This document shows positions 1-57,530 of a DNA stretch of 64,000 nt, one piece after another. This stretch comes from Chrysophaeum taylorii. Lineage: Eukaryota > Sar > Pelagophyceae > Pelagomonadales > Pelagomonadaceae. Under the pieces are notes generated by a model. That model was not told where the DNA came from. It worked only from the letters and a program-made list of their open reading frames with translations, and searched no databases. Position numbers and translations under genes: made by a program. Where the stretch lies: NCBI GenBank assembly GCA_029834535.1, contig JAQMWT010000444.1, forward strand, positions 1-64,000. Reading direction: 5' to 3'. Each line of letters opens with the position of its first letter. The stretch's first letter is position 1.

Positions 1-202
1 CGCCTCGCCGACGAATTCTCTGCCCCATTTCGCTATTGTAGCCGATACGAACTATGTGTTCCTGTTGGGGAGGGCGCGATATACGAGTCTTAGGAGCCAC
101 GTGGACTATCCCCACGATCGGATCGGTTTTTTATCGAACCCAAGTCGTATCGGGCGCAAGAAGATTAAAGTTAAGATGAACGAGTCGATGCACCCATCGT
201 GA

Positions 203-3200
203 CCTTTCGATCATTACGATCGAGATCCGATAACGGTACCGATTTACAATCATCAACACGATGCCTTCCGGCAGAGTCTCGACCTGGTCGAGACTCGAGT
301 TTACGCTCGTTTTAGCACGATTAAAGATATCCGAAGCCCGCCGCCGGAACGTACGGTAGCCTTGGCTACGCGGGGACATGCTACGACCAAATTCTCCCCA
401 GCTCCGGGAGAAGCCGCGCAGGAAGTAGTTGCTTATGCTGCGCGCACGCTTCAAATCGAGCCCGGTCGAACTTACAATCTACCGGTTATTTTGTCGAAGC
501 CTATGGAAATGGGACAGGTTTTCGTCGCTACGTTTGCTGAGAACGAGCAGTTGGGAGTTGTCGAAGGAATGTGTTCTTCTTGTGAAGAGCACGACCGGTC
601 CGCTGCTCGGGTGGCGGTTACTGCCACGGAAGAAGTGCCGACGGTCGTCACTCAAGGCGAAGTCCTTGCGATTGGCGGTATCGTTAGGTACGAAGATGAG
701 TTGAACGTCTCTACGATCAACGAACTTACGAAAGAATGTGAAGAAGGATACGACAAGGGGAACCTTTCTTTTACCGTTTCTGTCGCTAGTCACTTGACGC
801 GATGCGACGAATCTCCCCCGCCGATGCTGCTGAGCACGGTGCAGAAGGACACTACGACCGCTATGGCGGACAAGTCCACCCTCAAACGACCCGAAGGCAG
901 CGACGATTTCGCTCGAAGGTCAGAAGAAGATGAAAAGAAATGCCGCGAGATCACCGAAGCGGAGATCCGCCGCCGATACGAAAAGGTTTATTGGCTTCCA
1001 ATCACTTATCGCAAGGTTGTGATGCTGTTCATTGGAGCCGGAGCCAGTACTTTAGGTCTCCAACGAGCCAACGAAACGTGTGGGGCGTCGTTTCGAGTCG
1101 TGTTAGCACTCGATGCGTCGGATACCGCCAACCAGATACACCACAAGAATTTTCCGAACATTCCTGTGGTGCAGCACACACTGTGTGGTCGCTATGTTAC
1201 AACCTTACGGTCGATCGAATCTTACTTACCCTACGCGGAATGGTCGTCGTCGATGTGTCTCGCGTCGCCACCCTGCGTACACTCCGCTCTGTGCAACTTG
1301 ACCTCCAGTGATGTTGGGACAGGAGTCACCGCTACCCACTGGACGATGAAATTATGCAAAATGGCTGGTTTCTTCATGTGGTTGATAGAGCAGGAGGCTT
1401 CGATTATTTCTTACGTTGCACGTTTGCACCCTTACGTTTACGTCGTCAATTTGTACGACATAACTCCCAGTTTGATGAGCTGTCGCGTGCGATTGTTGGT
1501 TTCGAGCCATCCGCTCCATTTGCGCGCTGTCCCAAAGACTTGCAAGAATATGCAGCAAGAGTTCGCCGCAGCACTTGGCTACGCCGACGAACGACATTTA
1601 CTTCAGATGAACAATTTAGGATCATCACGAGCCGCGACAGACGCAGCTTACACCGTTGCGCGTGTCCCGCTTCGCGTAGGACCGCACCGTTCCGATTACA
1701 GATCTCTGAATCTGAAAATGACTTCGGAGTTGCTGACTATGCCCCTTGATTTTGATTGGGCCGGCTTCTCCAGGACGACATCGTTGAAACACTTGGCGTC
1801 CGTCGTGCCACCAGACACGATGACTTTATTAGTACTCGATCTGCACAACTCTGTGACCAAGGATTTTCACCTGAGCGGCGAAGCTTTGCCGTCAGCGTTG
1901 AGTCCTGCAGACCGACCGTTTGATTATTATTCGCAAGTTGATGAAACCACCCTTCGTCACGTACAAGTTCCGCTGTTAAACACGCGCACACGTGTCGTAA
2001 GATGGGTGTCGACTGATGATCTCCAAGATCGCACTAAATGGAAACCTCCAGAGGTACCGTTGATTCCGCCTGTAACAGATGAGCCGGGGACGTCTCATGC
2101 TTCTTCTGCTGGCCCCCCCCGACAACCAAATTTGGACGTTCCGCCAGATCCTGAGCGAGATCGGGAACCGAAGATTAAGAGCGAGCCGAGTGTTCGTGTC
2201 AAAGGCGAGAGGATCAACAAAAGCCACCCGGAAGTGAAACTAAAATATGAGCAGAAGTTCGATGTGCCATGGAAAGATGCGCCGCGCGATGCTGAGGGTG
2301 CACCGCTGCCGCAAACTCCCGAGCATGTCAAGGATAACGAAGCAATGAAAGTTAAAATTCATACGAAGGAAGAAGTTGACAAGGTTGTGCAGGAGCTGGG
2401 AATTCCTGACAATCCGCACTTAGATGACGAGGCGAAACTGATGCTCCGTCACTGTGTGCAATATTCTTGGGCCTTTTTCGACCCGATTATGAGACCTGTA
2501 GACTCACCTCCTGTGTCTCTACGATTCAAAGACGCGAATCCGCGACCGATTAAGATGACACCCTACCGATTGACGCCTGCGAAGCTCGATTGTCTCCGCA
2601 AGCAGATCAGCGAGTGGTGCCGGGATGGAGTCATTCGTCCGGCCAACTCACCTTGGGGCTTTCCTGTGTTGATGCTTCCGAAGAAAGGAGCTGAGATTGG
2701 AACGTCAAACGCGCTCCGTGCTGCAGTCGACTTACGTCAGCTCAACGATCAATTGGTCAATGACAGTTGGCCGAACATTCGACAAGACGATGCTTTAGCT
2801 TTTCTCGCCATGAGACGATGGCGGACATGCATTGATATTAGATGGGGATACCACAACCTTCGTCTGGATCCGGCAGCGCAGGACGCTGTCACGATGGTTA
2901 GCCCACTTGGCGCTCCTAGTTTCTTGCGATTACCTCGAGGTGTGAAGACGGCCGGAGCTCTTTTCTGCAAGCAACTGGCGAGCGACCTTTCGAAATGGAT
3001 GTATCAAGACTTGGTTGCGTTTGTTGACGATATTATGATGGGATCCGACGATCTTCATCGACATTTACAAGGTTTGATCGAAGTGATGTGTCATTTGGCA
3101 CAGAGAGGGTACAGCGGTCGAACCGCGAAGTTCCACCTTCTCAGGGATGATATAGAATTTCTGGGACACATTTCTACCCCAGAAGGCTTGAAGCCGAATC

Positions 3201-5644
3201 CGAAGACGCTGGAAGCACTGCAGAAGATGCCGATTCCAGGTACTTTACCGAATACTTCCCCGACGACCCAGATACGCTCTTTCATCGGCATGAGTAATTA
3301 CTGCCGGCGATATGTGAAGGGCTACTCGAAGATCGTAGAACCGCGGAGACGACTATGCCTCGAAGGTGTAAAGTTCGAGTGGACGCCCGAGTGTCAGAAA
3401 GCTTGGGATACGATTATTGAAGCTTTGGTTGATTCCCGTGAAGTCTACCACCCCGATTATGATCTGCCTTTTCAGATCCGATCCGATGCTTCCAAAGATG
3501 GACTTGGAGCATATCTCTTCCAGATTGTCGAAGTCAAGGACAATGCCGGAAAAGTGACTCGAGAAGAACGAGTGGTTGAATATTGGAGCCGAGCTGTGCC
3601 GAAGGAGATGCGCAATTACGAGCCCCGTCGGCTAGAGCTGCTGGCAGTTATACTTTCTCTAGAGCACTTTCGAGCCTACATCGAAGGGCACCGTACTGTT
3701 TTGGAGACCGATCACCGAAATTTGACGTTTTTACGTAAGGCGACGCACTCGTCTGGGCAGCTTGCTCGGTGGGCGATGCGCCTCGCCAATTTTGACCCTG
3801 AACTTGGTTACAAGCCGGGAAAGTCACCGGGAATGAGTATCCCTGACTGTCTCTCCCGCAACCCGATAGATCATGTCATCGAGACTGACGAGTTTGGAGA
3901 ACCTTTGAACCACGCGTATTTGGTGTTCCAAGAGCTTCCCCGACCTGTTGATGACCGAGGAGTTCCCGCCTCCGACTGCCACTTCATAATGTCGTTTATT
4001 ACGACCGAACTGCTGGAAGATGAGGAAGAAAATCCTGAAAAGGATCCGATGAGATTGGCTACGTCTCACGCTACGAGACAACGTCGGAAGAACCGTGCGC
4101 GCGATGAGCCACAGATCTTCAAGGACGCAGCCGCTTACAAAGATTATATCGATAAGATACCCGATAATATGACGCTCGCTGAGATCGCACGTGAGCAAGA
4201 ATCTGATGCTACGTGCGAGGATATTCGCTACCGAATGGCCCAAGGTCAGACGCCGCGACGTTCCCGAGCGAACGAACGATTCGAAGTCGTTAAAGACGTT
4301 CTTTGCCGAATTTCTGCTGATTTGCACCCGATGATTGTGGCCCCTGCTACGTTGCGCAAGCGCATTATTCGACTCTACCATGACACTCCGGTTAACGGTG
4401 GTCATATGGGACGTCACAGTACTGTCCAGGCTATCCAAGAACGATTTTGGTGGCCCCACATGTCAAACGAAGTTAGAGTCTTCATTGCTGAATGTTTAGT
4501 TTGCCAGAAAGCTCGTACGCCTGAGCCGAAACGAGCGGAACTCTTGCAGCAGCCTGTCTACGATGGTGATGGTGCTGTTCTTTGCATGGATTTATTTGGA
4601 CCCTTGCCCAGCGCTGGTCCCGAGACGTATCTTTTAGTATTTTTTGATCCGTTCTCGCATTTCTTGATTCTGGGTGTTTTGAACGATAAGACTGCTGAGT
4701 CTGTTCTCGAGTCTTTTTTCCTTAACATTCTCCTCAAGGGCTACTTGCCCCAGATGATTCGTACCGACAACGGTAAAGAGTTCGTGAACAAGTTGATGCG
4801 CGAGTTTTGCCATCTCTTCAACACACGATACCAAACTACGATTCCCTATCATGCCCAGTCGAACCCGGCTGAGCGTGTCAACCGATTTATCAAGGCCTTC
4901 CTCCGTGCTTGCCTTCAGGGCCGGAACATTGCGGATTGGCCTGACTTTGCTCATTATATTGCGTTTTGCTACAACCGCAAGTTTATTCCAGGCACGCAGA
5001 TTTCTCCCTCTAGACTGCGCCTGAACCGTCAGCCGATGCTACCGACTGACTACACGCTCATGGATTTTGATACACGATTATTGCCGAAGACTCGCTCTGA
5101 TGCAGTCGCCGAGACTCGCGAACGATTGAAATATTATACGAAGATCGTCCGCGAGGCTCGTGATAAAGCTTCGAAGAAACAACGATTGGCTTACAATGCT
5201 GATCATGTTGATGTTGAATACAAGGAAGGATCGCACGTTCTGCTCTACATTCCTTTCCTTCAGAACAAACTTCGACCGGAATGGCGAGGGCCGTTTATTA
5301 TCAAGGAACGCCTTTCCCCGGTCACCTATAGGATTGAGTCTCTCGACTCTCCGCCCGAAGAACGACGCGTTCATGTTAGTCAGATCACGCCTGTGATGGT
5401 ACCTCCGATCGTTGATCAAGCCATCCGCAAACCCGAAGAAACCTTCCGTAATGATTATCAGTACGGTAAGTTTGCTGTTTTCCGGATTCCTGACCGGAAG
5501 CGCTCCGATTGGCGCCAGAAGATTTATGTTGCTGAAGTTTACGAGCCTTACGATCACCAAAATGATCGTGTTGCTCTACATTTCTATTCTGATTTGGGTC
5601 CGAACGATGATGTCGCTTATTTCAAACCGACTTCTCACCTTTAG
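203..5644 (+). CDS. pol: Gypsy Pol polyprotein with embedded DNMT-like domain
   Basis: Makes the enzymes for retrotransposon reverse transcription and integration. Residue numbers count from the TTG at 362. A PR-RT linker lies at about 28-110 and a DNMT-like domain at 207-440. An acidic/proline linker follows at 560-700, then RT with FVDD at 887-890. RNase H has D1042, E1092 and D1117. Integrase has a zinc-binding H1340/H1348/C1378/C1381 set and catalytic D1410, D1469 and E1504, then a GPY/F-like segment at 1636-1660. A further C-terminal extension at about 1690-1745 is also present in the second Gypsy copy; I do not recognise it. The frame is open upstream to an in-frame TGA at 200-202, beyond which protease-like sequence continues to the window edge. 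The stop at 5642-5644 (TAG) is probably premature: the same frame runs on to TGA 5843-5845 and that tail resembles the tail kept in the small Gypsy at 8999-9217. The element is therefore probably inactive. Confidence 0.92.
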   Translation, partial: PFDHYDRDPITVPIYNHQHDAFRQSLDLVETRVYARFSTIKDIRSPPPERTVALATRGHATTKFSPAPGEAAQEVVAYAARTLQIEPGRTYNLPVILSKPMEMGQVFVATFAENEQLGVVEGMCSSCEEHDRSAARVAVTATEEVPTVVTQGEVLAIGGIVRYEDELNVSTINELTKECEEGYDKGNLSFTVSVASHLTRCDESPPPMLLSTVQKDTTTAMADKSTLKRPEGSDDFARRSEEDEKKCREITEAEIRRRYEKVYWLPITYRKVVMLFIGAGASTLGLQRANETCGASFRVVLALDASDTANQIHHKNFPNIPVVQHTLCGRYVTTLRSIESYLPYAEWSSSMCLASPPCVHSALCNLTSSDVGTGVTATHWTMKLCKMAGFFMWLIEQEASIISYVARLHPYVYVVNLYDITPSLMSCRVRLLVSSHPLHLRAVPKTCKNMQQEFAAALGYADERHLLQMNNLGSSRAATDAAYTVARVPLRVGPHRSDYRSLNLKMTSELLTMPLDFDWAGFSRTTSLKHLASVVPPDTMTLLVLDLHNSVTKDFHLSGEALPSALSPADRPFDYYSQVDETTLRHVQVPLLNTRTRVVRWVSTDDLQDRTKWKPPEVPLIPPVTDEPGTSHASSAGPPRQPNLDVPPDPERDREPKIKSEPSVRVKGERINKSHPEVKLKYEQKFDVPWKDAPRDAEGAPLPQTPEHVKDNEAMKVKIHTKEEVDKVVQELGIPDNPHLDDEAKLMLRHCVQYSWAFFDPIMRPVDSPPVSLRFKDANPRPIKMTPYRLTPAKLDCLRKQISEWCRDGVIRPANSPWGFPVLMLPKKGAEIGTSNALRAAVDLRQLNDQLVNDSWPNIRQDDALAFLAMRRWRTCIDIRWGYHNLRLDPAAQDAVTMVSPLGAPSFLRLPRGVKTAGALFCKQLASDLSKWMYQDLVAFVDDIMMGSDDLHRHLQGLIEVMCHLAQRGYSGRTAKFHLLRDDIEFLGHISTPEGLKPNPKTLEALQKMPIPGTLPNTSPTTQIRSFIGMSNYCRRYVKGYSKIVEPRRRLCLEGVKFEWTPECQKAWDTIIEALVDSREVYHPDYDLPFQIRSDASKDGLGAYLFQIVEVKDNAGKVTREERVVEYWSRAVPKEMRNYEPRRLELLAVILSLEHFRAYIEGHRTVLETDHRNLTFLRKATHSSGQLARWAMRLANFDPELGYKPGKSPGMSIPDCLSRNPIDHVIETDEFGEPLNHAYLVFQELPRPVDDRGVPASDCHFIMSFITTELLEDEEENPEKDPMRLATSHATRQRRKNRARDEPQIFKDAAAYKDYIDKIPDNMTLAEIAREQESDATCEDIRYRMAQGQTPRRSRANERFEVVKDVLCRISADLHPMIVAPATLRKRIIRLYHDTPVNGGHMGRHSTVQAIQERFWWPHMSNEVRVFIAECLVCQKARTPEPKRAELLQQPVYDGDGAVLCMDLFGPLPSAGPETYLLVFFDPFSHFLILGVLNDKTAESVLESFFLNILLKGYLPQMIRTDNGKEFVNKLMREFCHLFNTRYQTTIPYHAQSNPAERVNRFIKAFLRACLQGRNIADWPDFAHYIAFCYNRKFIPGTQISPSRLRLNRQPMLPTDYTLMDFDTRLLPKTRSDAVAETRERLKYYTKIVREARDKASKKQRLAYNADHVDVEYKEGSHVLLYIPFLQNKLRPEWRGPFIIKERLSPVTYRIESLDSPPEERRVHVSQITPVMVPPIVDQAIRKPEETFRNDYQYGKFAVFRIPDRKRSDWRQKIYVAEVYEPYDHQNDRVALHFYSDLGPNDDVAYFKPTSHL
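980..1681 (+). other. C5-cytosine DNA methyltransferase-like domain inside Gypsy Pol
   Basis: Residues 207-440 of the Pol frame follow the order of C5-DNMT motifs. Motif I is at 219-234 (MLFIGAGASTLGLQRAN), with a motif II-like acidic strand end at 246-253 (VVLALDAS) and the NFP-type segment after it. Motif IV has the catalytic Pro-Cys in SPPC at 302-305. A motif VI-like segment at 358-363 reads VYVVNL where ENV is usual, so the glutamate is lost. A GY element followed by a motif VIII-like stretch is at 406-435. The family methylates cytosine through the motif IV cysteine. Here the cysteine is kept but the motif VI glutamate is not, so activity is doubtful. No target-recognition region is clear. 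The assignment rests on motif order, not on a database search. Confidence 0.72.
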
Positions 5645-5921: not shown

Positions 5922-6257
5922 TGTGGCGGCAACTCCCGCCTCCTAAGGCTTACCCCTCTTCTAGGGCCCCCCTTATCAGGGGCACCCTGCTCCGTTCTGA
6001 TGATGTCAGTGTTCTCTACGACATCATCTTCCTTTTCCGTGACATGCGTCACCCTGATTTCTGTTTTTCGATATACCTTGATCATAAAGCAACAGCCGAT
6101 CCTCAAGTTGTGAGGACCAGGCACGGAAGTTGCTTGTGGTCGTGTGGCGGGAGAACGGCCATCCTCGTCCGGTGACTCCACCAAGGGCACGGACGCGAGC
6201 GGCGAGCCAGGATTCGAAGGCACGCCAGGTAGCCCCTAAAATTCTCCTTACGCCACA
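5922..6257 (+). repeat. 3' LTR of Gypsy 1
   Basis: The repeat starts TGTGGCG and ends CGCCACA, a 7-bp inverted terminal match, giving 336 bp. The first ~30 bp match the 5' LTR start of Gypsy 2 at 57206, and the two diverge after that. The right boundary rests on the terminal inverted match alone, since the other LTR of this copy is outside the window. Confidence 0.78.
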
Positions 6258-10140: not shown

Positions 10141-10178
10141 ATGTTTGTCTGTCTGTCTGTCTCTCTGTCTGTCTGTCT

Positions 10179-11441
<1,263 letters not shown>

Positions 11442-11880
11442 TTAAATGTCGACTGCTAAGAGGGGTGTGTGTGTGGGGAGCATGAAGGATGTGGGTGGGT
11501 TTGTGGGGTATGAGGGATGTGCCTGACGGGCGGAGATAAGTTCGCGGGACCTAGTCGGGGTCATCGCCGAGTCGTGGGGCAGGCGAAGAGAGGACGGGCC
11601 CCGCCCGTAGGTCGTACGCATGCTGCCGCCGGACGTATGTGCGACGAAGGGTGACGTCCTGCTGGGATCGGGCGGCCTGGGTGGGGTTCCCCGAGGCGGC
11701 GACATGGGTGAGGGCGGTGAGGGCACAACGAGCCCGGCCTAATGCGTTGGCGATCCCCCACTCACGGTAGATGCGGCGAGTTTGGGCCGCCTTTGCCTCT
11801 GTGAAGTTGGCGCAGCCGCTTGCCACCCAGGTTCGCGCAGCGATGCGCTCTGCGCATGTTTGGGCGAGAGCACTGTTTGT
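11442..11880. repeat. Extra module between microsatellite and helicase fragment
   Basis: 11442-11520 (TTTAAATGTCGACTGCTAAG, then GTGTGTGTGGGGAGCATGAAGG) recurs in Helitron copy 7 at 55974-56020 and 56137-56190. The remaining ~360 bp to 11880 are unique in the window and show no recognisable gene. Confidence 0.55.
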
Positions 11881-18329: not shown

Positions 18330-18673
18330 ACTAACTAACTAACTAACTTCAGACCTCTCCCGAGCATGGGAGCCAGGCCGGACCGGCAGGAGCCGGTACG
18401 GAACCACAGAGGAAAATCACGCAGCTGGGGCAGAGGCGAGGGACGAGGACGGACTTGTTGATGGTGGACCGCCACTGCGCGCGGTCTTGTGCGAGGTCGT
18501 GCAACGCGTCGCAGTCCGCGGACGTGTTGGTCCACGAACAATCGACCTGTCCGTCGCGTTCTGCCCAACCGAGCGAACCCCATCCCAGCGCGGACTTTCC
18601 GGGTGCTAACCGGCCACCAGCCCGGGAGGCGAGCAGGCACCGTCTCACTCCGGGACGGCCGGGGCCGCCGCTT
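18330..18673 (-). repeat. SINE-like element (copy b)
   Basis: Reads on the minus strand from 18673 to 18330, ending in a (TTAG)4-like tail after AGGTCTGAAG. About 344 bp; it lacks the first ~35 bp present in copies c and f. It splits the Copia RNase H frame. No target duplication found. Confidence 0.75.
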
Positions 18674-21600
18674 GGATGCCACCAACCCCACCCAAGATGC
18701 TTCATTGCATCTTTCACCTTCCCCATTCATCACCTACCTTCGTCCCCTTCCGAACAAACCTCCAATGCCTCTCTCCCGATTCTACCCGAGTACCATCACC
18801 ACCTCCACGGATGCCCCGGACCCGGTTCTCCTGGTTCACCGCCCACTCCGCCTTTCTGTTCTCGACCCCCCGCCGTCTCTGGCCCCTCCTCCTCTGCCAA
18901 ATCACTCTTCGCCTCTCTGGCACCCACAGTCCCACTTTGCACCCGCTCGCCTCCTTGGCCACCTGGTTCATACCAACTCGACCACATCCCCGCGTTCGAG
19001 TTGCGGGGGCTTACATCCAACACCGGCGACCGTACCCCTACCACCGGCGACGTTCTCCACGTGCAAAGTCACACCAAGAAACAAGACCACCAAGATAAAG
19101 ATTCGACAACGTCGGAATCAGCAACAGACAGCTCTGACTACGATGGTAACGAACACCATCACGCTGCCACGGGATGTGTCAAGGCTTCCTCTCTCTTTGG
19201 GCGCAATGGCCCAGACAGCAGCCCTGATGACGTGCAAAGCGAAACCAAGAAGCAAAACAATGTAGATCAAAAGTCGACAAATTTCGAATTATCGACCAAC
19301 AGCTCTCTCCCTGATGGTCATGATCACCATCATGCTGCCAAGACATGCACAAGGGCTTCTTCTCTCTTCGGGCACAACGGCCCAGGAAGCAGCCTTGCCG
19401 ACGGAACGCCAAGCCACCTCGTTCCCACGGTCGACAAGTCAACGAACAAGACACTTCGAGATGTTCCCGAGTATTACGCCTACATCGACTATGGCAACCA
19501 CAATCAAGGTCCATGGTCTCAACGTCTTCAATGCCCCAGGCAACAGAGCTGCAGGCTACTGACGACATCCTCTCGGATTCCGCCCTCTGGTCTGATGCGT
19601 ACAGTGAAGAAGCAAGTCCAACTCCACTTATCTCGGAAATGGTCTCCCCGACCATGCTCAATCAACCACCTGATCCACGAGCCATCACCCATGCCCCCGC
19701 TATGCCGCATCCACAAGGACAAGCCACGCTGTCGATTATCCCACGGTCACCATACTCGCAGGAACTCACCGCACCTGCAGGTCTCAGTTCAGATTCACCA
19801 GGTACTCCCGCCTTGTTCGACATCTCCCGATCAGTCGCCCCCGGTCACTTCAAAGCTGGCTCCACCTCGCTGTCTTCTCTCTCCGCAGACAGACACGCAC
19901 TGCCGCCCACAAGCGCTCGCTGCTGCACCCACCATCCACCTTCTCGGCCGGATGCACTGGATGGCACTGCTCAGCAGGTTGCATGGACCCATCTGCGATC
20001 ACCATGTTGCGATTCGATGGATGTCGCCGCACGTGCAACAGTCACGGCACATGCTCGCCCGCTCTCCAACTCACAATCAGTGGACGCACTCCTTTCGGAT
20101 GCCGACCCTTATGTCTCACCGCGACCAAGTTTCTGGCAAGCCTCCCCCATGGCCGCAGTCGTAGACATTGATTTCGAGAGTTATGAACGCCGCGGTCAGC
20201 CGCAAACTGTGCACGCTTCTATTGCGACAACTTCGGTTCTTTATGTCCGCTTGCATGGCTCTCTTCTGGACGCCACACGCCTACGCTGCCTCCAGAAAAT
20301 CAATGTTGCGCTCTCAGGAGACATTATCCGCGCGCACTGCACAGACTCGCTCCACCTGAACCGCTTCCGTCAGCATTTTCGCATAACAGGAATGTACGAC
20401 GAATCTTCCATGCCAGCTGCCGGCTCCACCGAAGACATGCTCAATCGCCACGCACGATGCCTCCCTCAACAGCGTCTTGTCGCTCTGCACGTCACTCCTC
20501 ATTCGAGGACACAAGTCATATGCCCGCACCTTAGAATGCACTATACGGCTATGGGCAACCCTAGTCACTACGGCACTCGCTGCTCTGGTCCCCGCATCTC
20601 CGCCATTGAGGATGCACCCAGCATGACTGACCCTTCCATCGCCCTTGGCTCTACTGCACTGACGCACTATGACCCCAGCGAACTCGCACTCTCCTTCGGC
20701 GATCCCCCTTTTTGATTTCCCGTACTGGACCCCACGCATTCCAGGCCGGATATTCTCCCCCACGGGATCTCAGCTCATGCACCCATCTGCACTACCTCGC
20801 AGACAGGTCGGCCGCGCGCCACACCCATTCTGGCACTGATTTCGGAACACTCGCATCACGCGATTTGGCTCTTCTTGGAGCATGACCCGCTTCTCGATGC
20901 TCTCCGCGTCACCGCCTTTGACACCAAGACACTCGTCATTTCCACCTACGCTCCGCGCCGCCATGTGCCTCGCGACCTTCCGATCACCAACATAAGCCGC
21001 CCGCGCCTACACCTAGTCGCGCTCGCCTTACAAGGGCGTATTTCGATTGGTGACCTCACAGGTCTTTCGAAGCATTTCCCGACGTCCGACTTTGAACTTA
21101 CGAGTCACTTTATGGCAACCCGCAATGCCAAGACGTCTGATGCTACGCGACCATGTCTCTGGAACTCCCCAGCCACAGAAACTGCCAGACAAGAAAGCAC
21201 TCAGCTCCCCACAGCTGCTCAACAGCGACTTCTAGTCTCGCACATAGCAATGACTACTATCTCGCAGTCTCTCACGGACAAGAAGACGAAAGACAAGACA
21301 ACAACGGCCAGCGACACCAGTCAGCCCACTGATGTAGCAGACGAGACAATGCAAACCAGCTGCACAGCACGGTTCCATACTAAGCAGACTATGCCCAGGT
21401 CCAACGCTCAATCGCTCGACCACGCACACGTTCTGTCACCCGACCTTGCACTGCTACTGGCTCCTGTCTCACTCACAGCTGACGCACCCCATCAGATTTA
21501 TCCGTCTTTCATACATGTCCCGCTTGCAGAAGCACCATTGCAGGACGCACAGGCACATCATGAAGATACAGGCAAGCGCACCGCGACTACGCGCACTACC

Positions 21601-24205
21601 GTATTGCGCCTATCCGATCACGATGAAATGAAGCTACAGCAACGCTCGCTCTCTTCGCCTCTGGAAGACAAAGGCCGCCTTCCAGCCTCCCAGGCACCTG
21701 ACCCGCCCCTGCCGCTGCAATCCGCGCCAGCACAGACGATCTCGCCCCCTTGCATGACTACTGATCAGGCACTAGCCAATGTCAGCACTCGCCAGAGGTA
21801 TACGCGCCCGCTGGACTCTTACCAGCACGGCTACCTCAGCCAGGCAGGTCACTGCACCACCTCGGTCTCCCTGATACCAGGTCGATGCATCGCTCATTCG
21901 CGACCACTGCATGTCATCTATTGGACGACTATGATCTCGAGCACGAACTCATCGCAACGCTTGAATCACACCCAAGTAGGAATCCTACTTTGGAGCCACC
22001 TCGGCCAATCCCACAGGAACTTTGGCCACCAGACGACACCCACACGCTCATGGTTTCCTCAATGGCTTCCCCCATAGCTCTTGACTGCAGCAGAGACAAG
22101 ATGCAACCATCCCATGCGACTATACCCGCGTTATCGTCTGGGACACCAGCATTTCCTTCATGTCGGATGTTTAGGCTCGTGGTACCGCCATATACGGCAA
22201 CCAATATCAACGTGGACTGCGTTCCACCCTCGTCTCTGAGCGTTACCCCCGACATGCTGCTTCCGGCACCGTTAGCCAGTCCCATCACGTCTGATTCAGC
22301 TCCCATCGCCTTGTATGACGTGTACGTCATATTCCGATTACTGCCCAGACACGGCACAGGCTCCGGCGCACTCGCGACGGCATGCTCGCCGCTCCTCTCG
22401 GTTTAGACTACCCACATAGCGCCATTCTCATGGTACACTCACAGTCAACCGAGATGCACGCTCGCTTGTTGCACAGTACGATGCCCGAACATCTATTTTT
22501 TCAGGTTCAACACAGCACTGTCGTTTCAGTCACCGCTAACACGCCCCCTCCGACCGCCGCCCGGTTCTGCGCTCGTTCCGCAACCACGGTCTCGCCGCCT
22601 CACCGGCAATTCGAAGATTTCACCAAGTTCAAATTACGAGGGCGCATTCCTTTTTCCCCGCCGACAAGACCCGTTACGGTTCGTATCAGTCACGTCGCCT
22701 GTGGCTACTCTGGCTACATCGGGACTCACTTCAAGTCACATACGGAAGCCTCTCTTCCTAAGGACCTCCGTCACACGACAAGACCTGATGAGCACTCGTC
22801 GTTACTCCCCGCTTCAACGCGATTCCCGACGATTTGTGATGACACTAAGTTTTGTCATCAATGCAATTCCGAGCCTCCGACGCTCTTCTGTCAGCTTTTT
22901 TCAGGTTACATCCCTCAGGTCACAGCTCATTCGGTTCCACCCTGTGTGCTACCACATGCAAACGAAGTTCTGTCATGCCAACGCCACATGTCGCAGTTAT
23001 CGCCAGTCTCGCGCAAAATATGCCCGCCACTAAATGATAGCCGCACGCAGAATCCTTTGCTCGCCTCTTCTAACGTCCCTCCCAGCACTATGCTTGACGT
23101 TGAAGATCAACACTTCTATGGTTCGGTTACAACACGACTTCACGCGAGATCCTCGCCCAGTTCTGTTCACGTTTTGCATCTGTCGACATTACCGCCAGAA
23201 GTCCTCAGCTCAGATTGCACTCGCATATTATGCTCTTATGACGCACCCGGCTCGCTCCTCTCCGTTCACACTGCAGGTTCCACTTTGCAGAGCGATGAGC
23301 TCACCGGCCTCTATTGCGATTCGCACCCAGTCGATATTCTCCGCAGCACCCGCGAGGATACCCCCAATCTCCACAGGTTGGACACGCGCTCTGCTCTCAG
23401 CATTCAACCGACTGTCGCTGCCGCACACCGCATGCCCCACCCAGTTGTGTTATGAATCAAGGGAAGTCAATTGCCATGCCTATCTCTTCCTTTATTTCCG
23501 CACACTCGTTGCCAGCCACAGTCTCGCATGACTCATTCTTATCGGACAGTCCTCACACTATGTCAGTTGTCTCACATCAGATTCACTCTTCGGACATCTC
23601 CCGTCCACAGACTCGTCCTCTCTTGAAACACACGCTCCCTCCGCGTTGTATACTGCACAGCTCCCGCATGTCGACACCACCCTTCTGTCGAATGTCTCAA
23701 AATTCAGTCACTGCACAATCCACCAGGGGTGCACCAGGCTCACCCGCGCTTGTACTTCAAGGGAAGTTTGATTCTGGTGAAGACGACTCCGGACATGAAA
23801 TGAATTCTGGATCAGTCGATTGTCACGACTCAGGATTACCTGGCCGAATAGAACACGACCCTCCAGTCCAACACGAAGGATGCGATTCCGACCATGCCTT
23901 CGAAGTCAGCTCTCCCACAGGCCAGGTCAATGTCTTCGCACAGTCCATCGCCTTCAGGCATTTACCCCTGTTGACTGACTCTTCTGCACAGGACGCACGT
24001 CTGCATCCACCAACATACGCGACACACTCGCAAACTTCAGTCCCAGTCCATTCATCCATTGATGATGGCAAATGGCAACCTCCACCAGACCACAATTCCA
24101 GGTCTACAGCCAAAACTCGGGACTACCGACAAAACTCTAGCATCCAAATCAGAGAGAAGCTTAGCCGAAGGCTTTTGAGTGAGCATGTCAGAGTGAGGAA
24201 CGTCT
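18674..24205 (+). other. 5.5-kb C-rich, G-poor block with overlapping open frames
   Basis: The plus strand is poor in G and rich in C and A, which removes TAG and TGA and leaves long frames in more than one phase: 18455-20164, 19345-20715, 20875-22077, 22382-23455 and 23314-24207. Two imperfect ~175-bp repeats at 19070-19415 encode HHHAA and SSLFGxNGP motifs in the first frame, the best hint of real coding. The products are Ser/Pro/His/Thr-rich with no recognised domain. The flanking Copia pieces on either side are encoded on the minus strand, so the strand bias flips at both edges. Confidence 0.4.
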
Positions 24206-24790
24206 GAACTGCGAATGTTGAGCTTATGCTCGGCGAGCATTTTATTGATCTTGGCTGCGACATTCATGGTGAGATGACCAGCGGACACATTGTAATGCAC
24301 GTCGATACCAAGGAAGGATCGAACATTGTCGTGCCAGGTACCTTTGCCATATTCTTTCTCCAGGGCACTACGAAGAGAAGTGATTTGGCAGTGTTAGTAC
24401 CGGTGATCAAAAGATCATGACTGAGACGGATTGAAGAACCCATCTGTTGATAGAACGACCCCAACTGATGTAGAGACAAGTGTTGACTTGCGAGCGATTG
24501 AACTCTTGTTGTCGAAGGAACGAGTCAAGCTTTACGTTCCATAACAAAGCTGACTGTTTTAGGCCATAGAGAGCCTTGACGAGTCGTAGAGCTAACTTGG
24601 ACTCTGGGTGGTTCTTTTATATCTGCTGAATGAGGTTCTGCGATACACGAATCCCTCGAGGCAAATCGATCCAGACCGGGCGATCGAGCGCCGATTGGAT
24701 GAAGGCTAGTCGAACGTCCGCGTGCGCGACTGGGAGCTTATGCTTCACTGCAATTAGATCCACGTAAAACCACTGTGCTCCTGGTAGAGA
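24100..24790 (-). pseudogene. Ty1/Copia reverse transcriptase fragment
   Basis: The minus strand reads HADVRLAFIQSALDRPVW, LVKALYGLKQSALLWN and later DLLITGTN and RSFLGIDVHYNVSAGHL. These are the RT palm and thumb landmarks of Copia elements. The YVDD catalytic box is degraded to a Ser-His-Asp before LLITG, there is a TAA/TAG near 24617, and several frame changes occur. The frame stops near 24100, where the C-rich block begins, so RNase H does not follow as it should. Confidence 0.85.
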
Positions 24791-33099: not shown

Positions 33100-36000
33100 A
33101 GCGACACTTTTTTTAAACCCTAGTTGCGCTTATCTCGCGCTGACGGCCCACTCCGGCGGCGATGGAGTCGGCGCACCCGGGTCGACGGAGGCCACGGGCG
33201 ACGGGGATGTCTCGACCGATGTCCAGGCTTTCCTCGACAACTTGTTTGGCGACGTTACGACGCGGGAATGGTGAGTTAACCGTCGCGGCGTCGAACGGTG
33301 CCTTTTTTGTAGATGCTAGTATTTGGTCGCGGGCCGCGAGAAATGGGTGAAGAGTGGAACGAAGGCCATCTCTCACTCGTCCATGGTGTGCCCGAGGGCC
33401 TCACCAGCTCCTACCCAGCTTTTGAGGCCCACCTCGCCCGGTGCCGGCCCCATCTGCATCGTGTGTCGAGGCGCAGTGATCTCGGGCCACATATGCGGTC
33501 CAAGGTGCTTGTTTGGGCCTAGCTACGGCTCGCCGAGCTCTTCCGCGTCGTCCGTGGCCCTGTCGTCGGTCGAGACTTCGTGGTCGCTCGCTCGTTGTCC
33601 AGCGTATCATGTTCCGCCAGCAACTTCAAACCGCCGATTCCCAGGTTATCACCGTGTGACTGGTGGTATTTCAGCAAGCTCTCCAAGTCGATCATCCAGG
33701 AGCTGATCCACCGCGGCATCACCGCACACAGCATCGAGCATTGCCGCTCCACAGGTGTATACGACAAGAAGGCCATGTTCTACGTCACCACCATTAACAA
33801 CATGACATACGCGTTCCAGCCGCGGCAACAGTACAAGGTTGAGCGCCTGATCGTCGAGTCCTGGGAGTCGATCCTCAAGGTGCTCGTGGCGCATTCCAAC
33901 GTGGGTGCCACCAGCTCGGTCGTGCGCTTCGACGACAACGTGAGCGAAACCGTGCTCCCGGCATTTCGGGTGCTACTCGAACTCGTCGCCTCGACGATCC
34001 CGTGTGGCTCGGCAGCTGAATTCGTCGCCGCTGTCGCCTGGCTCATCCAAAACAAGGAATTTCCGGAGCTGCGGGCTTGCGTCATGGGCGAGGCGACACG
34101 TGTCGAGCATGGTCCAACTAGCTGGTCGCGCGAGGGCCCATTAGTCTTCCAGCTTGTGACGGCGCTCCCGCCTTCGGCGCGAGCCTGGTGGTACTCGGCG
34201 GAGGCGTTGACCGAAGAATTCCTACGCCGCGGGGCCGACCGCCGACGACATGGATCTGCTCTTCTCGCCTGGCTCTTCGGCGTTAAGGACTGGCTGGAAT
34301 ATGCGCTGCAGTCGCGCCGACAGCACTGCGTTCATCTGGGTCCCGTCGCCGAGCGTCGTCTCCGCCCACCGCCTTCGCCATCAGCTCGACGGCGGCGTGT
34401 CGCGACCGGCGAACTACGCACCCGAGGGCGGGTGCCCATTCCCTCGACCCCTTGTCAAGGCGTGGCGAAACAGGACCAACGCTCAAGCCCCTGCCCCTGC
34501 TCCGACATCACCTGCGCCGACGTTGCCATTGCCCGCCCAGCGCGCCCTGGCAGAAGCTGCCAGCTTTTATACGGTCGATCCCTGGAACTGTGCCTCCCGC
34601 TCACGAGACGAGGCGACCTTTATAATCTACACGCCAGGGGCGATGCAGGTTGCTCGTGCCGCTCGCTTCGAAATCGTCAGCGACGCCGTTCGATTCGAAC
34701 TACGCATCGGCGGGAGACTGGCCTACATGGACTCGGCCGACAGGCCGATTGCCTCGATCGACGACGCCCGAGCGGCCCTTGACGAGGCGGCCAAGGCAAG
34801 GCCGTGCCCGGGCTTTGTTGACGATGGCGACTGCACGGCCGGGTTCACGGTGATGGTGTCGAAGGCGATGCGGTATGCCCCTATGTTGGTTCGGGGTGGC
34901 CGGGATCTCGAGTCGCGCTTTTGTAGGGGCCCTTCCTAGCCGACGTCGCGACGTCGGCGACAGCGCCGACGACTACGCCGACGTCGATGTCGACATGGAC
35001 GTGGTGGATGATACGACCAGCGCCGACTTTGACGCTGCTACTCGGGCTCGCGTCTTGCAACAGCCTCTGAGCCTCTATATTGAGCGCGCGTCTGACCAGT
35101 TCACGTTCACCGCCGTCGATTGCCTTGCCGTCGCCGGGCCCAGAGCTGGTCGTTGCGGACGGTGCTCGAAGAAGCGGGTGTCGATTAATTTGGCGGTCTC
35201 GAACGCCGTTCGGGTCCGCCAGGGCACACCGCCGAGGAAGGCGCCGCGAAACCACTACGCTGATTCTCCAGGCCTCGCGATGCGGGCCATGCGTCGCGAC
35301 GGCGACAGGATTCGCGTGCTTGAGGCTGAGAACGCCCGCCTCAAGCGGGAAGCGTCCAAGCTGCGCCTTAAATGCGGTATCGCCGTCGATGATTGCGATC
35401 AAAACGACCGCCTTGCCAAGCTTTTCCAGATGACAAATGAGCAGGCCCTAAGCATCTTTCCGAGAGACTCGGTCATACGCGCCATCTGGGAGGACCAGAT
35501 CGAGAACATCCACCGGATGAAAAAGAGCGGGAGCCGTCAGGTCTGCCGCTACAGCCCGGTGACGATCAAGGCCGCGGTCCTTCTCTTGGACAAGATAGGC
35601 AAGGAGTCCTACGACGGAGCACGCCAGGTCTTCTTCTTGCCGACGCGGCGCCGCGTTCGCGACTTCACGGGCTTCGCCTTTGCGGACGACGACGGCATCA
35701 TGCTCGGCATGTGCGTTGCCATGTGGAAGTCGGCGAACGAACGCGAGCTCAATCACGGGTGGCAGCGCTGTGGCTGTGTTGCGTTTGACGCCATGTCCAT
35801 CAAGGGCGGCGTCTTCTTCCAGTACCACACAGGCCACATTCTTGGCTTCCCGTGCGCCGACAAAGCCCGCGACACCGTCTTGAACGAGCCCATGGCCAAG
35901 GCCACCATCGACCCCAACGCCAATCCACGCGAGGCCGAACTCGCCACGCACCACCTGGTCTTTTACTTCGTCGGCCTCGGTGCCGACAACATTGCCTTTC

Positions 36001-37110
36001 CCATCGCAAGATTCGCCCTCTCGAGAATTACGGGGTCATTCCTCGTTGACGTTTTCAACAACGTCGTCATCGAACTGGAACGCCACTCCTTCCACGTGGT
36101 CGCCGCAGCCTTTGACGGCGCCGCCAAAAGTCGTGTCTTCGCCAAGACGCTACTTACGCTGCCGGCGTCGAACTTCCTGAACGGCGAGACTGTCGGCTTC
36201 GACGCGTCGACACTTGTGGCGATGCCTCATCCCGTCCTTGGCGAAGCTTTCCCCATCGTTCTCCTCTCTGATCCGCCGCACGCCTGGAAGAAGATTGCCA
36301 GCGCGCTGGAGTCATCCAACCCCAATGCCAAGAAGCGCCAATTGCAGAAGGTGTCGGGCGGCGTGGCACGACCGCTTTGCCTCGAGATGGCCACAGATGC
36401 TTGGTTCGACTTCGAGGGCATCACCGATTGGGGCTCGGCCATCGGCGGCGAAGGTGCGCTCAAGCGCTGCAATTTAACTCGGGAACATTGTCAGAAGAAC
36501 GCATTTCATCGCATGCGTGTCTATCTTGCCGTCCAGGTTGTCAGCGGGACCATGGTGAAGATTATTGATGAGTACTGAGGTGACGACGCGTCTCGAGCCG
36601 ACTTATACAAACGGCTTCGTGACCTCTGCTGGCGGATGGACCGCTTCGTCGACGTCTGCAATGGTCGTCGCGACACGGGGTTCGATAACATTCGGAACCT
36701 AGACGCCAAGGAACTCAAAGAACTGGAGGTTTTTATCGCCTGGTTGGAATCGTGGCACAACGAGATCCGGACACACCAGCATATTCAACATTTCGACGAT
36801 GAGCAGCGGAAGTATGCGTTCTTAGCAGAGGAATGTTTGTATGACATTCAGCTGATCACGAAGGGTACCATCGCCATGGCTCACCACTACTTGCGAAAGT
36901 TCCCTACGGCCATTCTAGACAAGCGTCGTCTCATGCAGGACATCGTCGAGCACCACTTTTGCTCGCGTGCGGCAAGCTGGCGGATCGACACAGAACCCCG
37001 ATGTTCGTCGGTGTAGGAGCGCATTGAGCACCGCCGGCGCCCACCGGGCTCAAGGCGACAACAGCAACTCGGGCCAAGCGCCACTTGTCGTGAATCCCAG
37101 TGCCTCGCTT
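33100..37110 (+). pseudogene. P-element-like transposase gene
   Basis: The best part is 34875-36578. It has a leucine-zipper-like coiled coil (RIRVLEAENARLKREASKL), then SYDGARQVFFLPTRRRVRDF, CVAFDAMSIKGG with the first catalytic Asp, AAAFDGAAKSR, and LLSDPPHAWKKIASAL. These are the order and motifs of P-element/THAP9 transposases. After a stop at 36576 it resumes at 36636-37016 (MDRFVDVCNGRRDTG...HYLRKFPTAI). Upstream frames (33323-33706, 33580-34440, 34500-34939) contain CIVCRGAVISGHICG and CPGFVDDGDC metal-site-like pieces. GTGAGT...TTTGTAG near 33270-33312 may be an intron. The C-terminal tail expected after 37016 is missing, and several breaks are present, so it is probably inactive. Confidence 0.75.
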
Positions 37111-43399: not shown

Positions 43400-43678
43400 T
43401 TATTTATATCCCCTTGGTTTAACACTTGATCCCAACATTGGACTTTTTATGATGCCATAGAGGTACCCAAAATTTATTCTCCCTGGGTACGTAAACCATG
43501 CTCCCATGAGCGACCCGGTCCGAGACGTGTTCCAGACAACGAGAGTAGGGAACGACTTCAGGTGGTTGTACGGCTGAGTAAAAGCCAGGAGGTTGAGAGT
43601 GGAATCCATGGAGGCGAAAGGAGTGCCGTTGGCGTCCAGGCCAAGATCCAGGAATGGGACCTTGAGGCGCGATATCAT
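43400..43678 (-). pseudogene. C-terminal region after the DNMT-like domain
   Basis: A 92-codon frame (VPFLDLGLDANGTPFASMD, then PTLVVWNTSRTG) continues the protein after the DNMT motifs and ends just before the polypurine-type sequence. No known domain. It could be the DNMT target-recognition side or an unrelated tail. Confidence 0.4.
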
Positions 43679-44460
43679 CTGACATAAGCGGGCGTTGGCG
43701 GAAATCGAGAGCTGAGCAGCACCGGCTGGTTTGTAAGGGAAGACGGCCTTGTGGCCATAGTACGCGATGGTCGAGAGAGTGACGGTGCCACGAAGGGCGG
43801 GGTCGGTGATCCATAGGTCGTCTGGAATTTGGGGTCAGGGTCCAAAAAAGGGACCATGCTCGGTGGGGAGACGAGCCAGAGAGAGGCGGATATTTCGAGA
43901 TCGCAAGGGTCCGAGGGGTGCCGAGCAAAGACTGCAAGATAGCGGTGCTTGCTGATGGCGTCACCGAAAGCAGAGGCATTGTAGACACCGGAGTGACGGA
44001 AGTAGCCCATGCGTTGGTAATGCTGAGCGAGTTGCGTATATTCGAGGTGGGTTTTAGGGTTCGGAGGAACGTTTTCGACAATGGCGTATGTTGGAAGTGT
44101 ACACCGAACAAAGCGAACTTGCTCCTGGACGAAAAGATCGGCGGTGACAGGGGTGGAGTAGCCACCATAGTCTTTCATGACACTAAGATGTTGACGTGGA
44201 AGGGTGAAGACAGCTATGTCAAATCTCGGCATTCCAACTCTGCCAGTCTGAAGAGCGGCATTGAGTTTCGGAGGTCGCCGAAGTGCTATGCGTCTGGGAA
44301 CGGACGTCGTGCACGAGCACGGAGGACTGGGTTGATCTCGCAGGTGGCCACAACAATGCTCCAGCACGCCCATGGCAAGCGATGTTCCTGATGGAGTCTG
44401 CCGGCAATGATGGTTACGTGGTAGGCGCTGCGTCGAGAGACGCGCGAGATCGCGCTACCA
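43660..44460 (-). pseudogene. DNMT-like domain with motif IV Cys changed to Arg
   Basis: Minus-strand frames give, in order: SGTSLAMGVLEH (motif I-like, different phase), VVATCEINPVLRARARR then FPDA and HFGDLRN (motif II and following), RFDIAVFTLPRQHLSVMKD (motif IV, where the usual PCQ is PRQ), YAIVENVP (motif VI, intact ENV at 44068-44076), and GVYNASAFGDAISKHRYLAV (motif VIII region). The Arg codon is at 44194-44196. At least two frame changes and a TAG at 44286-44288 lie before motif IV. DNMTs need the motif IV cysteine, so this copy should not methylate. The motif order is nonetheless clear. Confidence 0.78.
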
Positions 44461-45169
44461 GAGCGGCGGTCGCAGCAGTGATTCAGTGCGCGGTAGCACG
44501 ATGAAGGCGGGAGTGTTTTGTACTTTGCGAAATCCAGCGAATGCACTTCGAACGGAGCCCATGACCTTCTATGATTTTTATGCCCATCCTCGGAGATAAA
44601 AGTGTTTGACGGCGAGTGTGGAAGCTGACCACACGGTCGAAAGCAGCTGCCGAGTATGATGGCAGAGACAGTAGACCAATGGATTGCCGATGAGCGATAA
44701 CTACAGCAGTGGTTCCAATAATTGTGCTGTAGTCGTGTGGATCCGAAGTGGAGTCCACCATAAGCTCATAAAGGTAGGGTGAATTCGGAAGCGGCGGGTC
44801 CGTGGCCTGTACTTTGAGTGCCTTTATCTGCGACGCCAGCATAACCTGCGCAAGCCTGGTCGGCTTCAACAACAAGGAAGACCAGATATGCTACTTTCAT
44901 GCTGTATCAGTGCGCCAGTGGACGAGACCTGCCGCCTGGATATACGACGGATTGATGCCGATGAGGCCCACCGGGCTGCCAGCCATGTCTCAGTGCCAGG
45001 TCCATAGACCATGCTTATGTGAGCCTTTGCAGAACTTGCCCGGGTGGCCGCAGTGGAGATGAAGCCTCGCGATCAGGCTCGCGAAATAGTCGAGGACGTT
45101 GGGAGTTTATCCAGCAACAGACGAAATGCCTGATTCTTCACTTGTGGGTTGTCGACACAGGCGTCGTCG

Positions 45170-47340
45170 GCAACCATTACCGGAAAAGTCGGCTCTGGTG
45201 AAGGGCCTTGATATAGTCTTGACGCCGTTGGACGTAATCCTCCATTGAATATTGAGGCTGATCAGATTCGGGAACTTGGTCATCGGGTAGATCGAGTTGA
45301 TCATAATTATGGTATAGGAGACCGACTTGAGGATCCACAGAGCCGTCGTCTACAACGTCCCATGCAGCTGCATCATCCGGCGGTGGGTCGGCGGAGAGAA
45401 GCTGGAGAAGCTCGGCGGCGTCGTTATCTGCCTCAGAGAAAAGAATCTCATCGGAGATAGTCGTAATGGTGTTGGTGAGGCGGGCCATGTGGTCTTTGTT
45501 GTGAGTGTTGCGCTTGCCGGCCTCTCAGAGATTGCGGATGGTCTGCAGCTTGCGGCGGACATCACGAAGAGGGACCTTGAACCGTTGGTCAGGGGTATGT
45601 GGTTTGGGGGGATGAGTGTGTGTTGGAAAGGTGACCTTACGGAGGTGCGGGTGTTCGCGTTTGTCAGGGGTGACGGGTGGAACACGAGGCTTTGGCCTTT
45701 GCTTGGAGGGGGTTGTCGGTGGTGCCTTGGGCTTAGGACTGTCATTGATGTCGTAGTACGACGGTGACCTAGGATGAGGGGGCCTGGTGGGCTTTTTCGC
45801 ATGACGGGACTGTTGCTTTTCGCGATAGGCGTGAAGATGTTGGATCAGGGGTTGATCCTCCTCAGGGTGAAGTTGGGCTTGAGTGATGAAGGGCATCGAC
45901 GATGTCGACGTCATCGTGCGGAGAGTCTTCTTCATCTGGTGGGACCTCATCTTCGGGAGGTGAAGCGTCGTCGTCGTCATCTTCGGTAAGGTTGAGACCA
46001 TTTCGTCGAGGGCGGACGCGAGGAGTGTCCTTGGTGGGGAGACGGCCGAAGTCAGTGACGAAGCGAAGAGGCTCAAAGTTGAGGCTTGGGTGGGGCTTCA
46101 AATGAGCCCAAAAGTTGCGTTCAAAGGTGGAGATGACGGTGATGCGGGCAATGGGCTTTGGTGCCAGGTGATGAATTGCCGCTTTGTCTTCGTCGAGAAG
46201 CTGGGAGTCATGTGGTGTGCGAAGGCAGTTGGCGAGACGAGCGAAGCCCTTGATGTGAGTGGGGGCGCGCGAGTGAAGAAGACTCGAGGGGTACTTAAAA
46301 CGGAGTATCTTGTGTATCTCCTCGAGGATGGTGGCGTCGCGGAGTTGAAGCGAGGGGTCGTCGGTGATGGCGTCGTCGGTGATTTGACGGAGTTGCTGTT
46401 GAACATGAAGCATGTAGTCGACGTAGTGAGCGGGCTCGTGGTACTCCGGATTTAATGGGGCTTCCAGGTAGGAAATGGGGACGTAATGTGCGTGGTGGAC
46501 ATGATGTTGTCCAGTGTGCTTGTCGAGCGCGATGCGAACTTGGTGAGCAAACTCGAGACTAATGGGGTGGGTCGACCCAAGCTTGTCGATTTCGTCGTAA
46601 GCGGGATGCTCGACGGAATCGCGGCCGGCGTGCAGGAAGCGGCGGATCAGAGGGTACACGGTCTCACGGAGGTAGACTATGAACTCTGCTTCTTTGTCCT
46701 TCAGATGCGGCTGCGTGATGGGATAGAGCTTCCCCAGCGACTTATTTCTTGGATATTTGTCGTGATCCTCGAGCTCCTTGAGCTTGGCTTTGTAGACATT
46801 CTCGTAGAAGTCCTGGCCGAACGTGCGGTAGACGCCCTGGTAGTATACCTGGTGACCTGGAAAGTCTGGGGGATTGCCGGCAGTGGCGTGAAGTTGTGGA
46901 TCTTTGTCGTACTCGGCGATGCGGTAGCAAAGTAGAGCTTCGCCGAGGTCGTTGGAACCACGCAGAACAGATGCCCACGTGAAGAGGTTCTTAAGGAAGT
47001 ATTGGGTGACGGCGGTCTCTGGCATGAGGTGCTCGGTGAAGAGCTGCAAAACGTGGTAGGATAGCATCTGGGGCGTAACTTGAGCGCCATCCTTCTACTT
47101 GAGGACGGAGCTAGGGGGTCCAGTGAAGGTAGTGGGCTTGGGCTTAGGGGGAGGATCTTGTGGGGCCGGACGGGAGGAGGGGTCGCTGCTGCGACGGTAG
47201 GAGGTGGGTATTGCTCGTGTTGCTCATCAATTTCGCGACGACGGATTCGAGTTGTGCGATCTTGTTCTCCGTTGTGACATTCTTGGCTTTGAGATCAACG
47301 TTTTCAGCTCTGATAGCCTGCATTTATTGATTATGCCGGG
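45170..47340 (-). pseudogene. Gag-like protein of the DNMT-bearing element
   Basis: Starts with a coiled coil (NVDLKAKNVTTENKIAQLES), a Pro-rich PKPKPTTFTGPP linker and a long helical region (longest frame 45862-47067, 401 codons, e.g. FLKNLFTWASVLRGSNDLGE). An acidic and then a basic Pro-rich tail (45525-45900) and a further frame 45177-45488 follow. The 'PF.G...' start followed by a helical domain is typical of Gag. Stops at about 47110 (TAG) and 47328 (TAA) and frame changes near 45890 and 45500 make it a pseudogene. A HCGHPGKFC stretch at 45025-45055 could be a damaged zinc knuckle. Confidence 0.5.
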
Positions 47341-57205: not shown

Positions 57206-57530
57206 TGTGGCGGCAACTCCTGACCGCTAAGGCTTACCCCCCCTCTCTCGAGGCTTGATACCCGTTCAACGGGACACCTTTCCCGATCTTCTTAGTGACA
57301 TCATACCTCTCTCTTGTGAGAAGCATTCTTGCTGTATTCTTGTAGTTTCCTTGCTATCATATTCCATCTCTCCATCTTGTTGAGAGGCTTGGTGAGCGTG
57401 AGCAAGGTGTGTGGCGAGCATACCCGACCCCGAGTCCGTGTTTTCCTCGTTCAGTGAGGTCTAGGACGAGTCGGTGAGTACCCCCTTTGTCACCCGGGGG
57501 TCGGGAAGGTTTTTTTTCTGTGCCGCCATA
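57206..57530 (+). repeat. 5' LTR of Gypsy 2
   Basis: Starts TGTGGCGGCAACTCC, like the Gypsy 1 LTR. The likely end is CCGCCATA at 57530, a partial inverted match of the start, giving ~325 bp. A TGG at 57532 could begin the primer-binding site. The right end is less certain than the left. Confidence 0.65.

Follow-up and report, generated by a model that had tools for sequence, protein, structure and literature searches.

The window analyzed here, the first 64,000 nt of Chrysophaeum taylorii contig JAQMWT010000444.1 (assembly GCA_029834535.1; coordinates refer to the forward strand), begins within a Ty3/Gypsy retrotransposon whose Pol polyprotein carries a domain that, on the evidence of its sequence relatives, almost certainly descends from cytosine-5 (C5) methyltransferases (MTases). 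The copy at the start of the window, called copy 1, is a decayed member of a family with a real and selected C5-MTase domain. The best explanation overall, in which we place moderate confidence, is that a Gypsy element gained a C5 MTase within Pol and methylates its own nucleic acid with it. The parts of copy 1 are as follows.

2-361, forward strand: C-terminal protease remnant and start of the linker between protease and reverse transcriptase (PR-RT linker), from translation and alignment to the frame of locus L048
362-5644, forward strand: Pol frame, a single uninterrupted open reading frame (ORF) of 1760 aa
974-1690, forward strand: C5-MTase-derived domain, about Pol residues 205-443, upstream of reverse transcriptase (RT) and in the same frame
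2711-3172, forward strand: RT (PF00078, by Pfam), with F-V-D-D-I at 3020-3034
3455-3793, forward strand: RNase H (PF17917, by Pfam)
4343-4852, forward strand: integrase, H2C2 zinc domain and rve core (by Pfam)
5922-6257, forward strand: 3′ long terminal repeat (LTR), 336 bp, TGTGGCG...CGCCACA, ends set by eye

Pfam profiles recognize RVT_1, RNase H, H2C2, and rve in Gypsy order within this Pol frame. The protease remnant lies in the same frame, is truncated by the start of the contig, and contains one stop. The C-terminal limit given for the MTase-derived domain is an estimate from a trough in nonsynonymous divergence (Ka) that is described below. A longer frame at locus L048 (2672 aa, one end open) runs from a gag-like part through a protease-like stretch, the PR-RT linker, and the MTase to RT, RNase H, and integrase; its protease was recognized by eye and has no Pfam match. 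A purine tract, CAGGGGAG, precedes the 3′ LTR of copy 1. A search inside seven single loci found no LTR pair, with only a tandem array seen in L044, and the LTRs are known from separate copies (the 3′ LTR of copy 1 and the 5′ LTR of a second copy in the window) rather than as a pair from one copy. The initial annotation of this DNA had located an MTase-like domain within a Ty3/Gypsy Pol, after the PR-RT linker and ahead of RT. This assignment is upheld by the uninterrupted frame, the order of the Pfam domains, and the profile matches of relatives.

Taken alone, the window copy leaves the case for MTase ancestry thin. Against the Pfam profile for C5 cytosine methyltransferases (PF00145, cut-off 22 bits), it scores 13.9 bits (E = 0.037) over 980-1681, the exact interval first annotated, 17.6 bits (E = 0.0027) over 974-1759, and 18.8 bits (E = 0.0012) over 860-2060, all below the cut-off, and the match reaches motifs I and II only. 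The best match by sequence among solved structures is DNMT2, which is not significant either for the single window segment (human DNMT2, E = 0.44-0.47) or for the family profile (E = 0.035-0.037); motifs I and II align with DNMT2, as does motif IV in the single-segment search. Such subthreshold scores, insignificant PDB matches, and a weak fold test might be taken to mean that there is no methyltransferase here at all, and that a fast-evolving PR-RT linker has come to resemble one by chance.

However, the relatives settle what the window copy leaves uncertain. All eight of the aligned family members, the window copy included, have PF00145 matches with E ≤ 0.1, the lowest being 2e-05, and two better-kept copies score above the cut-off (22.9 bits for L035, 23.8 bits for L057), so that the profile search first proposed as a check supports the assignment through relatives and not through the window segment itself. 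A domain profile built from eight members finds the protein P0001 at 75 bits (E = 1.2e-15) as its sole match among 6170 candidates, and P0001 itself passes the PF00145 cut-off with 30.5 bits, in a match to model positions 6-120, which span motifs I-VI. Once P0001 is included, the profile also detects P0002 (E = 1.6e-3), a cytosine-5 methyltransferase according to its source and a 178.6-bit match to PF00145. An hhalign comparison of the A3 profile with P0002 gives 96.7% probability (E = 4.4e-10) and aligns the two motifs I with each other, and likewise the two PPC motifs. In a shuffle control (five proteins, 200 shuffles each, 1000 in all), the top shuffle reached 13.9 bits and the runner-up 7.2, compared with 75.4 for the real P0001 and 25.7 for the real P0002. 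Free-standing C5-MTase genes also occur in the genome (L051 and L052); L051 scored 8.0 bits against the domain profile, L054, a member of a second element family, scored -1.2, and the score of L052 was unreported. A reading of L051 as a DNMT2 gene was set aside as a guess. In our view, the match to P0001, the PF00145 scores of relatives, and the hhalign result refute chance likeness, against which the Ka trough across the segment also speaks, and we regard it as extremely improbable.

Searches farther afield added no members. Among 3027 candidates, all proteins of polyprotein length, none matched Pol residues 190-480 at E ≤ 0.01, and no relative was found in scans of viral_contigs (60 pattern-matching stretches with the A3 profile, 30 with the A2 profile) or of genome_contigs (12 such stretches with the A3 profile).

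Within the domain of copy 1, the following motifs can be located.

1016-1060, forward strand: motif I, binding of S-adenosylmethionine (SAM), VVMLFIGAGASTLGL; FIGAGA here and FSGAGG in most relatives
1262-1291, forward strand: motif IV, ASPPCVHSAL, catalytic Cys codon at 1274-1276
1379-1405, forward strand: motif VI, WLIEQEASI, with LIEQ at 1382-1393 and the Glu codon at 1388-1390
1475-1507, forward strand: motif VIII, MSCRVRLLVSS, containing R-V-R
1601-1630, forward strand: possible motif X, LLQMNNLGSS, tentative and assigned by eye

Motifs I, IV, VI, and VIII were found in order inside the interval and the single Pol frame where they had been annotated. The accompanying claim that motif VI has lost its Glu proved incorrect. 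A BLASTP alignment of P0001 with L035 (170 columns, one one-residue gap) sets A-E-N-V on I-E-Q-E, and a three-way MAFFT alignment sets I-E-Q of the window against A-E-N of P0001 and F-E-N of P0002, with the Glu invariant. DNMT2 has ENV as its motif VI. In a weak structure model, motif VI sits directly after predicted strand 5. Perhaps VVNLYD (1442-1459), located 18 residues beyond motif VI, was mistaken for it.

Conservation was evaluated in relatives, from a search of 59 sequences in which eight (L051-L058) were left out, L057 for an incomplete match and the others for lack of one. The resulting 51 segments yield 41 distinct rows, since the window was present twice and five loci were fetched twice. 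The motif IV Cys and motif VI Glu, the two residues whose conservation had initially been singled out for examination, are found in 41 of 41 rows, and so is the first Arg of motif VIII. Motif I of the window copy reads FIGAGAS, with Ser in place of its Ile in 37 of the 41 rows and Gly in place of its Ala in 40; the change of the second Gly to Ala is thus confined to the window copy (1/41). With its motif I damaged, the window copy probably no longer binds SAM, although it still has the Cys, Glu, and Arg. The earlier suggestion that this copy may be dead is therefore fair on account of the motif I Ala and the truncated protease with its stop, but not on account of the motif VI Glu.

A captured MTase domain might also have lost catalysis throughout the family and been retained in Pol as a scaffold or as a module that binds nucleic acid or SAM. 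DNMT3L provides a comparable idea. Motif VI reads I-E-Q instead of E-N-V, motif I is damaged in the window copy, and neither motifs IX-X nor a target recognition domain can be recognized, all of which would suit such a module. This last region has no profile coverage and holds at most the short QMNNLGSS stretch, and the possible motif X lies only about 31 residues past motif VIII, so a normal-sized target recognition domain does not fit between them. However, the invariance of the Cys, Glu, and first Arg extends across two otherwise divergent subfamilies, which argues against a noncatalytic module. We consider that alternative unlikely, and judge the domain to be probably still catalytic within the family.

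In the genome (G000, 70.8 Mb), at least 104 scored matches to a 400 aa piece (1121 candidates) and at least 146 to the L035 domain (954 candidates) were obtained, counts that are lower bounds and favor well-kept copies. By hand count, the domain is free of stops in 119 of the 146 listed copies, a list that likewise favors good copies, and it is common to at least two subfamilies that are about 77% identical over 400 aa. Ratios of nonsynonymous to synonymous divergence (Ka/Ks) were calculated by NG86 on observed sequences, comparing L045 with six copies of the subfamily that is about 77% identical to the window copy. The MTase core gave Ka of 0.064-0.072, Ks of 1.17-1.39, and Ka/Ks of 0.046-0.061, compared with Ka/Ks of 0.016-0.033 for RT (four copies), 0.018-0.041 for RNase H (six copies), and 0.105-0.154 for the part before the MTase (five copies); Ks is near saturation, and only the ranking of these ratios is safe. 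In 60-codon windows (L045 versus L035 and L032), Ka falls to 0.05-0.13 across Pol residues 200-459, from 0.19-0.40 before and 0.12-0.20 after this stretch. It is thus very likely that selection maintains the domain in the family. The initial annotation stated that the element once carried its own methyltransferase; carriage is confirmed, but "once" is too weak for a domain still under purifying selection, as the Ka/Ks values and the Ka trough indicate.

The data establish ancestry, architecture, conservation, and selection, whereas catalysis, substrate, and benefit are inferred. A Ty3/Gypsy Pol gained a C5-MTase domain, placed after its PR-RT linker and ahead of RT, and purifying selection keeps the catalytic set FSGAGG, PPC, LIEQ, and R-V-R. 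When the polyprotein is cleaved, the MTase domain may remain with RT in the particle, and would use SAM to methylate cytosines in nucleic acid of the element itself, with new cDNA prior to integration as the likeliest target. A copy might then reach the host already marked, and either escape recognition as foreign or undergo early silencing and hence be tolerated. That the substrate is the element's own cDNA, a proposal to which we assign slightly less than an even chance, is suggested by analogy with published retrotransposon DNMTs. de Mendoza 2018 (PMC5890265) describes C5 MTases in LINE and DIRS elements of Symbiodinium and in a Gypsy element of Klebsormidium. These MTases are reported to be under purifying selection and some of them to carry out de novo CG methylation, and the discussion of that paper takes up a yeast test. 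This supports the parallel with dinoflagellate and charophyte elements that had been drawn for the window. Similarly, a further paper states that in streptophytes and dinoflagellates some DNMT3 members are located within "LTR Copia and DIRS" elements (PMC12344493).

Several results are less favorable to a selected and active DNA methyltransferase. Comparisons with the broken, 84-87% identical copies L041-L044 give Ka/Ks of 0.07-0.26, and the window copy compared with its close copies gives 0.15-0.24 (RT there, 0.22-0.53), which would fit constraint that relaxed after insertion. The predicted structure is of low confidence (pLDDT 44), and while C5 MTases come first in Foldseek, with DNMT2 leading and DNMT1 and DNMT3 next, a dehydrogenase ranks first in VIA-align for the same model. 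Furthermore, CpG transitions are not in excess among 30 copies, which carry no CpG-deamination signature, and the C/T differences sorted by next base have no consistent context, being highest before T on one strand (0.13).

The lack of CpG decay, the leading position of DNMT2 both among solved structures by sequence and in Foldseek, and the scant space for a DNA target recognition domain would all be in keeping with a different substrate. PDB names DNMT2 a tRNA (cytosine-38-C5) methyltransferase, and the captured domain might likewise be a DNMT2-like enzyme that modifies RNA, either the genomic RNA or the tRNA primer, and not cDNA. However, the sequence matches to DNMT2 (E = 0.035-0.47) fall short of significance, and other C5 MTases follow closely behind it in the fold search. 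DNMT2 also differs from the window family in being a free-standing protein. An RNA target was raised in de Mendoza 2018 (PMC5890265) for the type carried by LINEs; the copy of that type which was tested left yeast DNA unmethylated. We regard an RNA target as quite unlikely, and continue to prefer methylation of the element's own nucleic acid with cDNA as the leading candidate.

Not every Gypsy copy in the window carries the domain. A member of a sister subfamily lies near the other end.

57206-63997, forward strand: copy 2, a sister-subfamily Gypsy copy
57206-57530, forward strand: 5′ LTR of copy 2, 325 bp, starting TGTGGCG and ending CGCCATA, ends set by eye
57963-63997, forward strand: coding part of copy 2, a gag-like ORF followed by RT, RNase H, and integrase

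The 5′ LTR of copy 2 matches the 3′ ends of copies of the L031-L038 subfamily. Copy 2 is without protease and MTase, as its alignment to the L048 frame, in which the MTase begins at about residue 1052, skips from residue 443 to residue 1397.

A separate repeated family (L053-L056 and L058) was found among the PF00145 matches in the genome, with 98 matches (728 candidates, 86 scored), in which a single copy is sometimes represented by several pieces. It keeps PCQ and ENV in four of four aligned copies, and L054 scores 34.9 bits for PF00145. The frame of the L054 MTase also contains an rve-like integrase core, which at 18.7 bits (E = 0.0021) stays under its cut-off of 32.6, and the stretch from the MTase to this integrase showed no RT. 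The RVT_2 profile did not place a Copia RT beside this family, as none of the 150 RVT_2 matches listed follows a listed MTase copy on its strand at a distance of 5 kb or less; the nearest to a second-family MTase copy, among the matches listed, is about 5.5 kb away on contig C613. No similarity between the two MTase families was detected by hhalign (probability 0.8%), in line with the negative score of L054 for the Gypsy-domain profile, and because these MTases show no detectable relation, their sequences suggest separate captures. One fragment of this family is present in the window.

43520-44579, reverse strand: broken and frameshifted second-family fragment

It reads PRQ for PCQ (44176-44208; catalytic Cys to Arg) and keeps ENV (44056-44082). 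Upstream of the fragment is an ORF of 410 aa at 45862-47094 (reverse strand), which has no Pfam match and may be its gag. Elsewhere, five overlapping ORFs occupy 18455-24207 (forward strand), four of them (18455-23452) without a Pfam match and the fifth at 23314-24207; the faint 26% matches of these ORFs to the second MTase family may reflect composition only.

Other features of the window include an ORF at 34875-36578 (forward strand) with a TNP-like RNase H transposase domain (PF21787, 39.2 bits) and a very long short-unit repeat at 10141-11445 that reads SVCLSVCL, with an AT skew of -0.74 in the 10-12 kb bin. In the genome, contig C696 holds eight of the listed RVT_1 matches and may represent an organelle genome with many group II introns.

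Gene content provides clues to the host lineage. Light-harvesting genes are numerous in the genome (84 matches), and rbcL and cbbX lie close together on one contig. An rbcL-cbbX neighborhood marks red-type plastids, whereas the RuBisCO of peridinin dinoflagellates is a nuclear-encoded form II enzyme. Because rbcL adjoins cbbX, the host probably has a red-type plastid and is neither a charophyte nor a peridinin dinoflagellate, the published hosts.

The closest published system is KnitGypsy-Dnmt3 of Klebsormidium nitens (PMC5890265), which likewise has a C5 MTase in a Gypsy Pol frame, purifying selection, and retained key residues. It differs, by description only, in grouping with Dnmt3 and in its DIRS-like repeat arrangement. 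For the window family, no Dnmt3 affinity was found among matches to solved structures, where the nearest, non-significantly, is DNMT2, and its LTRs look ordinary. SymbioDIRS-Dnmt3 and SymbioLINE-Dnmt of Symbiodinium are also described there as many-copy retroelements with C5 MTases, with more than one element class per genome; they belong to tyrosine-recombinase DIRS and LINE classes in another host lineage (PMC5890265). No MTase-bearing retroelement in another lineage is described in the accessible portions of the open-licence PMC literature searched (including PMC9998398, PMC12477816, PMC3145265, and PMC6338049). The phenomenon itself is already known, and what is new, within the open papers searched, is a further host lineage, an MTase without a clear class, and a second MTase-carrying family.

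Hosts use methylation as a weapon against transposons, which makes transposons that carry the enzyme a puzzle, one with two published host lineages so far. A further lineage and two element families in one genome imply that capture has happened repeatedly and probably brings a benefit, and many copies are available for testing catalytic need and substrate. It is possible, though we hold this only tentatively, that two unrelated integrase-bearing retroelement families of this genome each captured a different C5 MTase, independently of one another, and retain it. The Gypsy MTase would then form an orphan class whose target recognition domain is minimal or missing, and would modify the RNA or cDNA of its element in a way that leaves no trace of CpG deamination. 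If true, nucleic-acid methylation would be a feature to which LTR-element replication in algae has converged repeatedly.
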